Assembly (NCBI RefSeq): GCF_019039255.1
Contig: NZ_CP077062.1
Location: 4,216,001-4,280,000 of the forward strand
Length of the DNA: 64,000 nt
DNA from: Nocardioides panacis
Lineage (GTDB): Bacteria; Actinomycetota; Actinomycetes; Propionibacteriales; Nocardioidaceae
Reading direction: 5' to 3'
Part shown: positions 1,453 to 38,948 of the stretch, piece after piece
How the letters are laid out: every line of letters starts with the position of its first letter
How positions within the stretch are numbered: the first letter of the stretch is position 1
The notes under the pieces: model-generated
Seen by the model: only the letters and a program-made list of their open reading frames with translations
What the model was told of the DNA's origin: nothing
Database searches by the model: none
Position numbers and translations under genes: made by a program

Positions 1453-3030
1453 ATGACGACTCCGATGCACTGGGCCCGCTGGGGCGACCCCGACCAGGCC
1501 GCCGCCCTTCCCGAGGCCGCCCGCGGGCTGGTCGAGCTCGCGTTCGGCCCCGCCGAGGAGCGGCCCACCACCCCGCTCGCCGAGGTCCGGGTCCCCGAGC
1601 CCGCGCTCGCCGCGGACCTGCTGGCCGGGCTGCGCGACCTCGTCGGCGCCGACCACGTGCACATCGACCACGAGACCCGGGTCCGGCACACCCGCGGCAA
1701 GTCGACGTCCGACCTGCTCCGGATGCGCGCCGGCGACGGCTCGGACGCCCCCGACGCCGTCGTCCGGCCGGCCGGCCACGACGAGGTGCAGGCACTGGTC
1801 GGCTGGTGCGCGGAGCACCGGGTCGCGCTGGTCCCGTTCGGCGGCGGCACCTCGGTCGTCGGCGGGCTCACCGTGCTGCGCGAGGGGTACGCCGGCGTGG
1901 TGTCGCTCGACCTGGGCCGGCTCGACGCGCTGGTGTCGGTCGACGCCGAGTCGGGGACCGCCGTGCTCCAGGCCGGGGTGCTCGGCCCGGCCGCCGAGGA
2001 GCTGCTCGGTGCGCACGGCCTGATGCTCGGGCACTTCCCGCAGTCCTACCGGTACGCCTCGGTCGGCGGGTTCGCCGCGACCCGCTCCAGCGGCCAGGCC
2101 TCGTCCGGCTACGGCCGCTTCGACGCGCTGGTCGTCGGGCTCACCGTCGCCACCCCGATCGGCACGCTCGAGCTCGGCTCCGCACCGGCGAGCGCCGCCG
2201 GCCCCGACCTGCGCCAGCTCGTGCTGGGCTCCGAGGGCGCGTTCGGGGTGATCACCTCGGTGACCGTCCGGGTCCGCCCGGTGCCGTCGGTGAAGGTGTA
2301 CGACGGGTGGCGGTTCGACTCGTTCGCGGCCGGGACGGCCGCCTTGCGCGCGCTCGCGCAGTCCGGGGCGGCGCCGACCGTGCTGCGGCTCTCCGACGAG
2401 AACGAGACGGCGATCAACCTCGCCCAGCCCGACCAGGTCGGCGGCGCGAGCGCGGGCGGCTGCCTGATGATCGCCGGGTTCGAGGGCGAGCCCGCCGACG
2501 TCGAGCCGGCCCGGGTCGTCGCCTCCGCCCGGCTGACCCGGGCCGGCGGGGTCCGGGACGAGACGGCCGGGCCGTCGTGGGCCGCCGGCCGGTTCCACGG
2601 CCCGTACCTCCGCGACGCGATGCTCGACGTCGGCGTGCTCGTCGAGACCCTGGAGACCGCGACGTTCTGGTCCGGCCTGCCCGGGCTGTACCGCGCGGTG
2701 ACCGCCGCCGTCACGGGCGCGCTGGCCGACGACGCGCCGCTGGTGCTCTGCCACGTGTCGCACGTCTACCCGACCGGTGCCTCGCTGTACTTCACGGTTG
2801 CCGCCAAGCAGCGCGGCGACGGCCTCGAGCAGTGGGCCCGCGCGAAGGCCGCCGCGTCCGACGCGATCGTCGCGGCCGGCGCGACGATCACCCACCACCA
2901 CGCGGTCGGCCGGGACCACAAGCCCTGGCTGGCCCAGGAGATCGGGCCGGTCGGGGTGGAGATGCTGCGCGCGGTCAAGGAGCGCCTCGACCCGCACGGG
3001 GTCCTGAACCCCGGCGTCCTCATCCCCTGA
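1453..3030 (+). CDS. FAD-linked oxidase, alkyldihydroxyacetonephosphate synthase-like
   Basis: 525 residues. FAD-binding type 4 domain in the N-terminal half with PFGGGTSVVGG near residue 134, and an FAD-linked oxidase C-terminal domain ending in a histidine-rich ATITHHHAVGRDHKPW segment like that of AGPS. AGPS exchanges an acyl group of acyl-DHAP for a fatty alcohol in ether lipid synthesis. Actinobacterial homologues are usually annotated AgpS, though the reaction is rarely proven. The neighbour glpD produces DHAP, which fits a glycerolipid role. The gene is divergent from the TetR gene, and its ATG follows the dyad directly, so little or no leader is present. Confidence 0.85.
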   Translation: MTTPMHWARWGDPDQAAALPEAARGLVELAFGPAEERPTTPLAEVRVPEPALAADLLAGLRDLVGADHVHIDHETRVRHTRGKSTSDLLRMRAGDGSDAPDAVVRPAGHDEVQALVGWCAEHRVALVPFGGGTSVVGGLTVLREGYAGVVSLDLGRLDALVSVDAESGTAVLQAGVLGPAAEELLGAHGLMLGHFPQSYRYASVGGFAATRSSGQASSGYGRFDALVVGLTVATPIGTLELGSAPASAAGPDLRQLVLGSEGAFGVITSVTVRVRPVPSVKVYDGWRFDSFAAGTAALRALAQSGAAPTVLRLSDENETAINLAQPDQVGGASAGGCLMIAGFEGEPADVEPARVVASARLTRAGGVRDETAGPSWAAGRFHGPYLRDAMLDVGVLVETLETATFWSGLPGLYRAVTAAVTGALADDAPLVLCHVSHVYPTGASLYFTVAAKQRGDGLEQWARAKAAASDAIVAAGATITHHHAVGRDHKPWLAQEIGPVGVEMLRAVKERLDPHGVLNPGVLIP

Positions 3031-3234
3031 CCCGGCGACTCTGGCGGCGAGCGCCCGCCGACCCGGCGACTCTGGCGGCCGAGCGCCCGCCGACCCGGCG
3101 ACTTTGGCGGCCGAGCGACCACCGACCCGGCGCGTCTGGCGGGCCGCCGTACGGTGCCGACCTACGGACCTGGGCTCCCCGCCGCCAAAGCCGCCGGGTC
3201 GGCGCAGCCCCCGCCGCCAGAGTCGCCGGGTGGG
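3031..3234. repeat. Tandem and inverted GC-rich repeat array between convergent genes
   Basis: Four head-to-tail units of about 32 bases starting at 3031, 3061, 3093 and 3125, each beginning (A)CCCGGCGACTCTGGCGGC with small changes (third unit CTTTGG, fourth truncated). Two copies in opposite orientation follow at 3181-3204 and 3211-3234. The array fills the whole gap between the stops of the convergent oxidase and pirin genes. Transcripts from either side would fold into strong hairpins, so it may act as a bidirectional terminator. The spacing and the lack of cas genes argue against CRISPR. Confidence 0.85.
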
Positions 3235-3933
3235 CTAGGGGAGCTGCCAGGCCAGGAGCTCTGCTCCCGGAGAGAGACCCGTCGCCCTCGGGGCGCCTTC
3301 GGCGGTGAACCTCGCGGCATCGCCCTCCGCCAGTCGGCCGGCGCCCTCCAGGTCGACCGACCCCCGGGCCACGAAGACGTGCAACCGGGGCGCGTCCGGC
3401 AGCTCGACGGACTCTCCCGGACCCAGCCGCGCGACGTGCAGGGCGGCTCCCGAGGTGTGGATCCGGACGGCCGCGTCGAGGCCGGGGAGGCCGGAGGCCA
3501 GCGCCGTCAGCCCCTGTACGTCGACCCGCGACCGTGCGAAGGACGGGGTGAGCCCGGACTCGTCGGGCCGCACCCACATCTGCACGAAGCGGGTCGGCTC
3601 GGCGGCGCCCGGGGCGTCGTTGCGCTCGCTGTGCCGCACGCCGCTGCCCGCGCTGAGCCGCTGCACGACCCCGGGGGTGAGCACGCCGGAGTGCCCGTGC
3701 GAGTCCTGGTGCACCAGGCTGCCGGCCAGCACCCAGGTGACGATCTCCAGGTCGGCGTGCGGGTGCAGGTCGTACCCGTGCCCCGGAGCGACCACGTCCT
3801 CGTTGTGCGCGACGAGCACCGCGTGCCCCACGTTGTCCGGGTCGTAGTGCTGCCCGAAGGAGAACGAGTGCCGCGACGTCAGCCAGTCCGTCGTGGTCTC
3901 GAAACGCTCCCCGCCCCGCCGTACGTCGATCAC
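3235..3933 (-). CDS. Pirin family protein (bicupin)
   Basis: 232 residues, the usual length for YhhW-type pirins. The N-terminal cupin keeps the metal-ligand pattern: HPHADLEIVTWVLAG supplies two His and a Glu, with a further His in SGVRHSERN. Family members include quercetin 2,3-dioxygenases and redox-sensing Fe proteins, and the substrate cannot be read from sequence. The GTG start at 3933 gives a normal N-terminus (VIDVRRGGERFET). The gene ends immediately beside the repeat array, 10 bases downstream of the diguanylate cyclase gene on the same strand. Confidence 0.9.
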   Translation of the reverse strand: MIDVRRGGERFETTTDWLTSRHSFSFGQHYDPDNVGHAVLVAHNEDVVAPGHGYDLHPHADLEIVTWVLAGSLVHQDSHGHSGVLTPGVVQRLSAGSGVRHSERNDAPGAAEPTRFVQMWVRPDESGLTPSFARSRVDVQGLTALASGLPGLDAAVRIHTSGAALHVARLGPGESVELPDAPRLHVFVARGSVDLEGAGRLAEGDAARFTAEGAPRATGLSPGAELLAWQLP

Positions 3934-3943
3934 GCGACCCAGG

Positions 3944-5059
3944 CTAGGCCAGCGAGTTCGCCACCACCGTGGAGGAGAGCCGGCCGTGCTTGGCGACGTA
4001 CTGGGCCCGGTCGGCCTCGGCGAACAGCCGGGCCGGCGTCAGCGTCGTGCCGTGCGTGACGGCGGCGGTCGCGGCACCGGCCGAGACGCCGACGCCCGGA
4101 CCGGAGTGCCAGGTGCGCCGGCACAGCCGGTCGGCGGCGGCGACCACGGCGGCCGGGTCGTGCCCGGAGACCAGCACGGTGAACTCGTCCCCGCCGACCC
4201 GGGCGACCAGGCTGCCGGCCAGCCGGCTGAACTCGGAGGTCAGCGCCCGGGCCACGGACTGGATGAGCTGGTCGCCGGCGAGGTGCCCGAGGGTGTCGTT
4301 GACCTGCTTGAGCCGGTTGATGTCGAGCGAGACCACCGTGACCGTGCGCACCGAGCGGGGCGCGACGTCGAAGGCCTGGGCGGCCCGCTCGTCGAGGGCC
4401 CGGCGGTTCAGCAGCCCGGTCAGCGGGTCGCGGTAGGCGAGCTGCTCGAGCGACTCCTCGCGCACCGCCCGGCTGATCGCACCGCCGAGGATCGCCATCA
4501 GCGCCTCGAGGTAGGACAGGTCCAGGCTGCTGAAGTCCGGGTGGTCCACGGTGCGGGTGGCGTAGAACTCGCCCCACAGCTGGCCGTCGACGACGATCGG
4601 CGACCCGATCGCGCAGTGCTTGGCGAGCTCCTGGAGCAGCAGCCGCTCGCGGCCGTCGGTGCCCGGGTCGTCGACCGCGGCCCGCCACGGGACCCAGTCC
4701 TGGCTGAGCACCGCGAGGTTCGCGTACTCGCCCATGTCGTAGACCTCGTTGTCCGGCCACCGCACCTCGGTCGGGCCGAGGTCGCCGACGTTGACGATGG
4801 TCCGCACGGTGCTGGTGCCGGTCTCCAGCCGGCTGACGGACACGCTGGACGCGTCGAGCGCGAGGAGCGCCTCCTCGGCGGCGATCTCCAGCAGCCGGAA
4901 CAGCGCCTCCGAGCGGCCCAGGGCGCGCGCCATCTCCGCAAGGCTGCGGATGCGCGTCTCCTGCACGGCTGGCAACACCTGTCCGACTCCCTCAGTGCGT
5001 CGTGGTGCGGGGCCCGAGAGGCCCGTCCGACTGTTGCTTCGGTCGGTGGGGACGGCCAC
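3944..5059 (-). CDS. Diguanylate cyclase with N-terminal GAF domain
   Basis: 371 residues from a GTG at 5059; an in-frame ATG near 4931 is an alternative. A GAF-like sensor spans about residues 45-200 and a GGDEF domain residues 210-365, with DPLTGLLNRRAL at its start and an intact RVGGDEFTVL active loop. It should make cyclic di-GMP from two GTP. No RxxD inhibitory site is visible at the usual place before the GGDEF loop, so product inhibition through that site is not expected. There is no membrane segment, so the protein is probably cytosolic. It is divergent from the lipoprotein gene at 5157. Confidence 0.9.
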   Translation of the reverse strand: MAVPTDRSNSRTGLSGPAPRRTEGVGQVLPAVQETRIRSLAEMARALGRSEALFRLLEIAAEEALLALDASSVSVSRLETGTSTVRTIVNVGDLGPTEVRWPDNEVYDMGEYANLAVLSQDWVPWRAAVDDPGTDGRERLLLQELAKHCAIGSPIVVDGQLWGEFYATRTVDHPDFSSLDLSYLEALMAILGGAISRAVREESLEQLAYRDPLTGLLNRRALDERAAQAFDVAPRSVRTVTVVSLDINRLKQVNDTLGHLAGDQLIQSVARALTSEFSRLAGSLVARVGGDEFTVLVSGHDPAAVVAAADRLCRRTWHSGPGVGVSAGAATAAVTHGTTLTPARLFAEADRAQYVAKHGRLSSTVVANSLA

Positions 5060-15457: not shown

Positions 15458-16170
15458 TCAGCGGCCCGCGCTCTGGCCGCCGTCGAGGTGCAGGATCTGT
15501 CCGGTGACGAACGGGGCCGACTCCAGGTAGAGGATGCCGTCGACGACGTCGCTGACCTGGCCGACCCGTCCCAGGGGTGGAGCGCCGCAAGGGAGTCGTA
15601 GGACTCCGGCGCATGTTCCGGGGTCTGGATGACGCCCGGCGAGACCGCGTTGACCCGGATGCCGTGCGCGGCGTACTCGATGGCCAGGGACCTGGTGGCG
15701 GAGGCGAGACCGCCCTTGGTCAGCGCGGTGAGGACGGCGGGTGTCTGGGAGTCGGCGAAGTCCGCGAGCGTGGCCGAGACGTTGACGACGTGGCCGCTGC
15801 GTCGCTCGAGCATCGCGGTGATGACGCGCTGGGTGAGCCAGAAGAACCCGGCCAGGTTGACGCCGACAGCTCGCGCGTAGTCGGCGGCCGTGTAGTCGGT
15901 GAACGGCTTGGCGACGTACACGCCGGCGTTGTTGACGAGGGTGTCGATGCGGCCGAACCTCTCCAAGGCGCCCTCGACGACGCGGTCGGCGGTGGCGGGA
16001 TCGGAGATGTCTCCGTCGATCGTGAGCAGGTCCGCGTCGCTGGCCGGCACGATCGTGCGCGAGGTCGCCACGACCGCCCAGCCCTGCCGCCGGTAGCCGG
16101 CCACGAGGCCGGCCCCGATGCCCTGCGAGCCGCCCGTGACGACGACCACCTTGCGAACCCGCTCGCTCAT
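15458..16170 (-). pseudogene. Short-chain dehydrogenase/reductase with a one-base shift near the C-terminus
   Basis: Classical SDR: TGGSQGIGAGL nucleotide motif, NNAG, a catalytic Ser-Tyr-Lys site (here VNVSATLADF and a Thr-Lys of ALTKGG, with the usual YxxxK Tyr not seen) and NAVSPGVIQTPE. The frame is lost at about 15573-15576, in a short C run. The end of the protein (VSDVVDGILYLESAPFVTGQ, then LHLDGGQSAGR) reads in the next frame. One additional C would restore 237 residues. The ATG at 16170 overlaps the stop of the GNAT gene (ATGA). Either a sequence error or a recent mutation; the substituted active-site Tyr is odd and independent of the shift. Confidence 0.78.
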
Positions 16171-38036: not shown

Positions 38037-38948
38037 TTAGACGCCGGCAACGTACGCGGTGAGGAAGTGGACGCCGTGGCGGTCGAGGTTGCCTCTGGCT
38101 CGGTCGTAGTGCTCGGTGGTGCGGGGGTCGGCGTGGCGAGCGAGTATCTGGACGTCGCGGAGGGGGACGCCGGCATCCAGGGCGTTGGTGATCGCGGCGT
38201 GGCGCAGCGAGTGCGGGCTGATGTGGCGGCGGATGGCGGCGGTCTTCGCGATCCGGACCACCATCCGGTAGACGTCGCGGCGGTCGATCGGCTTGCCGGA
38301 GACGGGGCGGAGTACCAGCGGGCCGGTGGTGCGTTGCCCGCGACATGCCTCGAGCACGCGCAGCACCGGGACGGTGAGGGGCATCGTCGCGGGCTTGTTT
38401 CCCTTGCCGACCAGATGCAGGACGCGGTGACCGCGCAGCGTCTCGGCGTAGTCCTCGATCCGCACCGCCGCGGCCTCGGAGGCTCGCAGTGCATTGATGC
38501 CGAGCAGGTAGGCAAGCGCGCCGTGGTGGACGCTGACGGTCTGAGCTACCTGGAGGAACCGGATCAGCTCGAGCCGGTCCAGGCCCTGCGTGCGGGACTC
38601 ATCGGAATGGACCTTCGGGAGTCGTGCGTAGACCGCGGGGTCGGAGACGATCAGCCCGTCGATGTGCGCGAAGCGGAAGTAGCCGCGCACCGCGTGCATC
38701 ATCGTGACAACCGAGGAGTCCATCAGTCCACCGTCGCCGAGCTTTCGGATGTAGAGCTCGATATGCGCGCGCTGGATTCCGACCAAGGGATCGAGCGCGT
38801 TGGTCTCGCACCAGGCGAACCAGCGGCGGAGCTGAAAGGCGTCCAGCGCGTGGGTATGGCCGGAGTACCGCGCCAGGTAGGAGACCGCCGCGAGCTGTGC
38901 AGGGGACATGGCGTCGGGCTGGAACGGAAGAAGTGTCGTGCTGGACAT
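38037..38948 (-). CDS. Tyrosine recombinase/integrase
   Basis: 303 residues from the ATG at 38948. N-terminal SAM-like core-binding domain (about residues 15-110) and a catalytic domain with all key residues: Arg near 154 (GINALRASEAAAVRIED), Lys in LVGKGNKPATMP, HxxR in SPHSLRHAAI (about 248), His in ILARHADPRTTEHYD and the nucleophile Tyr near 281. Members resolve, integrate or excise DNA at short core sites. It lies inside the island marked by the repeated 15-bp motif and is the only recombinase in the window, so it is the obvious candidate to act on that motif. That is inference. An in-frame upstream extension to 39008 lacks homology. Confidence 0.92.
   Translation of the reverse strand: MSSTTLLPFQPDAMSPAQLAAVSYLARYSGHTHALDAFQLRRWFAWCETNALDPLVGIQRAHIELYIRKLGDGGLMDSSVVTMMHAVRGYFRFAHIDGLIVSDPAVYARLPKVHSDESRTQGLDRLELIRFLQVAQTVSVHHGALAYLLGINALRASEAAAVRIEDYAETLRGHRVLHLVGKGNKPATMPLTVPVLRVLEACRGQRTTGPLVLRPVSGKPIDRRDVYRMVVRIAKTAAIRRHISPHSLRHAAITNALDAGVPLRDVQILARHADPRTTEHYDRARGNLDRHGVHFLTAYVAGV

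Follow-up and report, generated by a model that had tools for sequence, protein, structure and literature searches.

Bidirectional intrinsic terminators have an inverted repeat between convergent stop codons. The DNA uptake sequences of Neisseria and Haemophilus are short dispersed words that come in species dialects and often form inverted pairs at gene ends, and each genome holds thousands of single words. Gyrase, which is a conserved enzyme, has been reported to bind BIMEs at convergent gene ends in E. coli. Two other systems come closer to the arrays described here. REP elements and the RAYTs associated with them fall into two superfamilies, GTAG and CGTC; in two REP-rich genomes most conv-REPs are no more than 20 bp away from an ORF 3' end and uni-REPs are close to one, and the enzyme that moves CGTC REPs was left open by the authors (PMC3733652). 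For the stoperators of cluster A mycobacteriophages, another study describes that reversing the asymmetric site leads to loss of transcription repression (PMC9283540). A search of the open-access literature returned no title or abstract describing arrays such as ours. We would regard the stoperator as the closest working parallel and the REP as the closest in distribution, and would file the arrays as a member of neither.

The array that we started from lies in a window (the whole 64,000-nt stretch that was analysed) comprising bases 4216001–4280000 of a 4.90-Mb contig of Nocardioides panacis (genome G000). Core matching bore out an earlier note on this DNA in finding six CCCGGCGACTCTGGCGGC-like cores at 3031–3230, four in one direction and two in the other, in a gap bounded by two convergent stop codons. 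The forward cores occupy 3031–3048, 3062–3079, 3094–3111 and 3126–3143 on the plus strand and the inverted cores 3181–3198 and 3213–3230 on the minus strand. In order of position they have 0, 0, 1, 3, 2 and 0 mismatches to the quoted core, and the fourth has 1 mismatch to the family consensus. Six matches at up to 3 mismatches were found in the window, whereas 100 shuffles of it averaged 0.66 matches and never had more than 3. From core to core the forward arm steps by 31, 32 and 32 and the inverted arm by 32, so the head-to-tail unit of 32 bases described in the note holds except for the first spacing. The core likewise exists, but the string quoted as 20 bases long is 18 nt. The FAD-linked oxidase gene on the left (1453–3030, plus strand; Pfam FAD_binding_4 and FAD-oxidase_C) has its TGA stop at 3028–3030, where it abuts the first core and doubles as the TGA/CGA triplet of that unit. 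The pirin gene on the right (3235–3933, minus strand; Pfam Pirin) ends toward the array with its stop end at 3235, 4 nt past the last core; the array thus spans the gap with 4 nt left over and does not fill it exactly. The centre gap between the arms (3144–3180) is 37 bp, or about 5 + 32, and may contain one decayed unit. Rfam gave no match at E up to 1 in window positions 2000–4500, and no tRNAs were found in the window. Elsewhere in the window, at 16000–56000, G+C drops from about 74% to 61–70% over about 40 kb; this part contains a phage-type integrase (38037–38909, minus strand) and two FlgD_ig-domain proteins and is possibly an acquired island.

Uniqueness of the core to this place was named in the earlier note as an outcome that would count against its reading; counting showed the core to be one of a dispersed family. 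With up to 3 mismatches allowed, the quoted core matched G000 257 times versus 114 times for the reversed pattern, and the strict consensus GACCCGGCGNNTYTGGCGG matched 83 times versus 1 in the control. A profile search with a covariance model that served purely as a sequence profile gave 163 matches at E≤5, a count with rough E-values and with scoring that covered part of the first-look candidates. We assembled arrays from 46 regions chosen from core or profile matches plus the window, joining neighbours up to 90 nt apart and requiring at least one unit with no more than 1 mismatch; units were counted at up to 3 mismatches, both here and in the census of six genomes. This gave 52 arrays or single units in G000, comprising 30 two-sided arrays, 14 one-sided arrays and 8 single units. 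By eye, about half of the one-sided arrays have a facing arm farther away. Across the six genomes we found 53 two-sided arrays, with an inverted unit to the left of a forward unit in 5.

Like REPs and BIMEs, the arrays are dispersed and mostly extragenic, lie near ORF 3' ends at both convergent and tandem junctions, contain head-to-head pairs and include some species-specific types (PMC3733652). They differ in that the unit is not a palindrome, head-to-tail pairs, rare in REPs, are common (86 same-strand neighbours versus 31 facing ones in the 52 arrays), and a PF01797 gene was not found in 7 genomes of the genus. A resemblance to REP or BIME elements, one of the possibilities raised in the note, therefore extends to distribution, dispersal and differences between species, but not to the form of the unit, the mainly head-to-tail order or the presence of PF01797 (0/7). 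Stem-loops with a GTAG or CGTC tag in each unit were not found, with folding z-scores of single arms mostly between –1.4 and +0.6; by eye, GCGTC occurs inside some cores, not as the unpaired tag of a stem. A CGCCG/CGGCG dyad can be seen by eye at the head of the unit. We also considered CRISPR arrays and rejected them because there are no unique spacers, the linkers of same-arm neighbours being 74% alike in G000.

Gene positions came from our own codon-usage script, which used no annotation, was trained on G000 and was applied to the other genomes too. Four of the 52 G000 arrays lay inside called genes; units in such positions include those at L077 (G000:C1:1006569) and L092 (G000:C1:3020924). 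The 48 arrays between two called genes were at convergent (23), tandem (21) and divergent (4) junctions, which shows that the core is not always between convergent genes. As a comparison, evenly spaced G000 sequence amounting to 400 kb has 5,840 of its 52,013 intergenic bases (11%) in convergent gaps, which make up 63 of its 346 junctions. Arrays were in excess at convergent junctions whether this was calculated by bases (binomial p = 2.6e-10) or by junctions (p = 2.5e-6), with most of the array loci having been chosen because they hold arrays. In the evenly spaced sample itself, units with up to 1 mismatch were present at 3/346 junctions (convergent 2/63, tandem 1/225, divergent 0/58), and 3 of its 9 units were outside junctions. 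Because units occur at just 3 of 346 junctions, the array is not a general terminator.

The arrays are placed closely at gene ends. Among 57 outermost G000 units beside a gene that ends toward them, 46 are no more than 12 nt from the stop and 29 are directly at it. In all 29 units that abut a called stop, the unit's own TGA is the stop codon, and elsewhere in G000 units the same triplet is CGA (92), CCA (23), TGA (22) or other (4). Two-sided arrays are equally common between tandem (14) and convergent (15) genes in G000, so one arm often faces no gene end. In the six genomes the outermost forward unit was beside a plus-strand gene in 54/78 cases and the outermost inverted unit beside a minus-strand gene in 57/79, which is a tendency and not a strict rule.

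Such a position would suit a bidirectional intrinsic terminator or 3' stability element, in which facing units form a long RNA hairpin on both mRNAs and tandem duplication lengthens the stem. The whole window array does fold better than shuffles (z = –7.2 and –9.9 for the two strands), and the centre gap is 5–6 nt in 22 of 31 facing G000 pairs, which suits a hairpin loop. However, the inverted repeats themselves suffice for these z-scores. When the first 120–130 nt of six single arms were folded, five gave z-scores of –1.4 to +0.6 and the sixth –2.2, which does not support an RNA signal from a single arm folding locally. No U-tract terminator was found in window positions 2800–3500, a result that leaves room for a terminator free of a U-tract, and centre gaps in G002–G004 are 13–52 nt, with the cores of G002 extending 5 nt past the pattern used.

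We also compared the sequences of the two arms. In G000, facing units of one array agreed in 84.5% of core positions and units of different arrays in 83.8%. Agreement was 56% (0.563; 18 facing pairs) versus 51% (0.511) in the linkers and 23% versus 24% at two variable bases, so that opposing arms resemble random pairs. Neighbours in the same arm were more alike, with 90% agreement in the core, 74% in the linkers and 61% at the two variable bases. G006 showed the same trend (core 77% for 13 facing pairs versus 81%). Linkers in G002 gave 52% versus 37% for 3 pairs, and the pairs of G003 and G002 are too few to tell. In the innermost G000 pairs, 4 of 44 cells deviating from the consensus were identical in both arms, and two of the four come from L092, where the rare TTGC replaces CGGC on both sides. 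This double change favours pairing of the two arms or copying from one to the other. Overall, units duplicate inside an arm, and complementarity of the two arms is hardly maintained. The idea that the element was built by duplication thus fits within an arm, where neighbours are alike, and that of a bidirectional terminator is weakened by arms without co-variation, by the one-sided arrays (14/52) and by the missing U-tract. The hairpin also leaves steps of 22 and 32 and a 10.5-bp rhythm (see below) unexplained, and we consider it unlikely. Since opposing arms do not co-vary, the core appears to be kept for its sequence. In sum, the arrays resemble bidirectional intrinsic terminators in being an inverted repeat between convergent stops and differ in the helical step, the one-sided forms, the lack of compensatory change between arms and, for the window array, the lack of a U-tract.

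The step between units is close to constant. Same-strand steps were exactly 32 bp in 74/86 cases in G000 and in 37/42 in G006, which has the same core, and also with other cores in G003 (73/76), G002 (36/38) and G004 (9/9). Some regions of G006, G005 and G000 came from a pattern requiring 32, whereas those of G003, G002 and G004 did not. Same-strand spacings in G005 are unreliable because two overlapping patterns match the same units. A second tandem family in G000 has a GACCCGGGCC-like core and a 22-bp step, one turn less (L237:19554–19768, L247:18610–18948, L248:5359–5547, L250:7733–7792, and L079 at 4034 and 4521), and several of its arrays are at gene ends. In G005, one array has a step of 22 and a second has steps of 24 and 28. 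Among 121 intergenic tandem arrays (period 14–60, at least 2.4 copies), found in DNA mostly chosen because it holds arrays, the period was 31–32 in 82 and 22 in 9, and none had a period of 25–28. The period of coding tandem arrays was divisible by three in 61/69.

The gaps between opposing arms also show a helical rhythm. The centre gaps of 32 facing pairs in G000 were 5 (12 pairs), 6 (9), 13, 16 (4), 27, 37, 48, 67, 144 and 212. Nine of these gaps, those of 10–100, gave a phase coherence with its maximum at 10.5 bp (R = 0.82; p = 0.001 for that period and p = 0.006 over periods 8–14), with 13 and 67 off phase; the gaps are few, and those of 37 and 48 may simply represent 32 with 5 or 16 added. 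In seven genome/core sets R was 0.84 at 10.5, a value reached in 0 of 5000 simulations, and distinct gap values alone gave R = 0.82 (p = 0.0002). Gaps modulo 32 gave R = 0.77 (p = 0.006) with a peak at 10.75, and this is the safest figure since a gap of 37, for example, may consist of 32 + 5 and include a decayed unit.

We then compared related genomes. The strict consensus occurred in 4 of 39 genomes, namely G000, G005 (37), G006 (33) and, once, a genome of another family. A tandem pattern searched against 84,980 species genomes, possibly without the window's own record, matched 21 stretches, all in two Nocardioidaceae MAGs. We followed to their orthologs three gene 3' ends at which both G000 and one or more of the genomes sharing its core have arrays. 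In other species these gene ends carry arrays of the same build with different cores: GCCGAGGCGTCCCGTTC in G002, GCCGAGGCGCGCGT in G004, GAGTCGGCGCATCTGCAG in G003 and GAGTCGGCGCGTCC in G005, which has CCCGGCG-type arrays too. By eye, arrays were present at the three gene ends in 5/7, 4/6 and 5/7 genomes, and in 6 of the 9 gene-end cells of the genomes that do not have the window's core (G002, G003 and G004). G001 had no array at these three gene ends. At L161 in G003, the 3' end of a 440-aa gene that bears arrays in other species has a long near-perfect inverted repeat of unrelated sequence, ATTACCACGGGATGTCGG... The oxidase of the window had one close ortholog in this comparison (G001, 77%), with a different downstream neighbour.

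These other cores are also dispersed through their genomes. The G002/G004 pattern had 124 matches in G002 (control 0) and 29 in G004 (control 1), with no more than 5 in each of the other five genomes, and the G003/G005 pattern had 124 in G003 and 171 in G005 (controls 0) and none in the other five genomes of the genus. The loci of G003, G002 and G004 were picked from single-core matches, which favours clusters of matches, and the samples of G002 and G004 are small (9 and 6 arrays). In G001, 143 kb contained one array, with its own core and a period of 32, so none of the seven genomes examined in the genus is without an array. Relatedness is not reflected in core type: by each of the two comparable genes G002 and G006 are nearest to one another, yet they have different cores. 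At L117:3167 in G006, an inverted tandem of GAGTCGGCGCGTCCACAGC-type units adjoins the main core, which places two core types in one array region.

A family-wide search with the 646-aa gene matched 49/61 genomes. Among the matches listed were 30 loci, 25 of them new, and the 19 gene 3' ends from these that were viewed by eye showed no 32-bp array. In G016, G014 and G049 the ends of the 646-aa gene have palindromes of other sequence. In another genus, single palindromes stand at gene ends at L203 and L259 (G014) and at L269 and L273 (G049), and their heads look related (GAGTGGCGCA... and GAGTTCGGCGC...). GAGTGGCGCAGAT at 1 mismatch was found at 5 intergenic and 0 coding positions in a 200-kb sample of G014, and GAGTTCGGCGCG at 5 intergenic and 10 coding positions in G049.

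Species dialects of a short dispersed word, with inverted pairs at gene ends, are shared with DNA uptake sequences, from which the arrays differ in numbering tens per genome and in their tandem 32-bp step. The dialects also bear on a role in supercoiling or chromosome architecture, such as gyrase binding at convergent gene ends. The enrichment of arrays between convergent genes fits this explanation, and helical phasing would suit wrapped DNA. However, because gyrase is conserved, cores that differ between species of one genus are left unexplained, and we regard this role as improbable.

As for enzymes, a search for Y1_Tnp/RAYT (PF01797) found it in none of the seven genomes of the genus and in 5 of 14 control genomes. 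Among the genes that lie between a forward and an inverted arm is one for an AbiEi-like nuclease, the others including those for a GNAT protein, an MFS transporter and an aldose epimerase. The G000 copy of the nuclease matches AbiEi_4 at 25.4 bits (cut-off 25), the four copies scanned have a weak REase_MTES_1575 match that is under its cut-off, and PADLOC AbiEi models match both copies scanned. A PDB search with the nuclease gave nothing at E up to 1, and NCBIfam gave no match for 5 proteins. The gene adjoins arrays in 6/6 genomes where it was seen and has them on both sides in five, the G002 copy running off its contig. It is at one orthologous locus in five genomes and elsewhere in G003, and was absent from the 400 kb of evenly spaced G000 sequence. 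Since array regions were chosen, its contact with arrays is suggestive and no more. Nuclease identity to G000 is 67% for G002 (a fragment), 67% for G005 and 64% for G006, and its divergence does not track core type. We consider the nuclease a candidate array protein. DUF222 genes are about 130 nt from two G000 arrays; DUF222 proteins beside arrays are at L083:3623–4897 and L109:3325–4614, one with a weak HNH match. A further DUF222 match is at the edge of a random G003 stretch with no array in view.

These observations bear on the idea of a REP-like repeat, in which a cell enzyme, perhaps this AbiEi-like/REase_MTES_1575 nuclease, spreads or homogenises the unit or array, the repeats are tolerated at gene ends and any effect on transcription is secondary. 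Cores that are alike genome-wide within a genome and different between genomes, core types that are independent of relatedness, the nuclease beside arrays in all six genomes and the gene-end position reported for conv-REPs and uni-REPs in PMC3733652 are all consistent with it. Against it are the absence of PF01797 from the seven genomes, the single orthologous locus that accounts for five of the six cases of the nuclease, the choice of the DNA for its arrays, the lack of a match between nuclease divergence and core type, and the continued occupation of orthologous sites, which looks like inheritance. We rate a REP-like repeat as possible, with the weight of probability against it. More doubtful is a wider proposal of a new kind of actinobacterial gene-end system, in which facing arrays of directional sites are stepped by whole turns, a dedicated protein writes or reads the word, which is replaced chromosome-wide as specificity changes, and the array-bordered nuclease is that enzyme, with a role like that of RAYT for REPs; this we put forward as speculation.

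The reading that we prefer, tentatively and short of an even chance, is that the arrays are facing, helically phased sets of a putative directional protein-binding site that probably block transcription at gene ends. Whole-turn steps with different cores, phase between the arms and the lack of selection for pairing point to the double helix as the level of action and thus to a bound protein; the position at gene ends, together with orientation, suggests that the process concerned is transcription. An array would be a set of directional sites for a sequence-specific DNA-binding protein, in which a core of roughly 20 bp recurs at 32-bp intervals (some three turns of B-DNA), and this would place the bound proteins on one face of the helix. 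The two arms would usually face each other across a gap held in helical register, and the assembly would sit where one or both flanking genes have their stop codon. The resulting nucleoprotein block would most likely halt RNA polymerase on its way out of a gene or coming in from a convergent one, much as at a stoperator. If the specificity of the protein changes fast, this would account for the likeness of cores in any one genome and for their differences among many species of the genus. The use of other versions of the repeat by related species favours sites that a fast-changing protein reads over a simple RNA hairpin. Points that count against a protein-bound block are the scarcity of units at gene junctions in general (3/346), arms that often face no gene end, the small number of gaps behind the 10.5-bp rhythm, the 4 divergent and 4 intragenic G000 arrays, the steps of 24 and 28 in one G005 array, which are not whole turns, and the 5–6 nt centre gaps, which also suit a hairpin loop.

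Compared with stoperators as described in PMC9283540, the arrays are alike in having asymmetric sites in short intergenic spaces and lineages of differing specificity; the orientation of stoperators is correlated with transcription, toward which the arrays show a tendency. They are unlike stoperators in being chromosomal, in a core of about 20 bp versus 13 and in combining tandem and facing sites; stoperators also have a repressor, whereas the protein and its identity, like the block itself, are here what we infer.

If this reading is true, the arrays would be a natural collection of sites with independent variation in core, step (22 or 32) and phase, which would allow a direct test of how RNA polymerase is halted at gene ends by proteins bound there. 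They would also be a clear case of a binding word changing genome-wide between related species, and would offer a candidate enzyme for REP-like repeats that have no known transposase.
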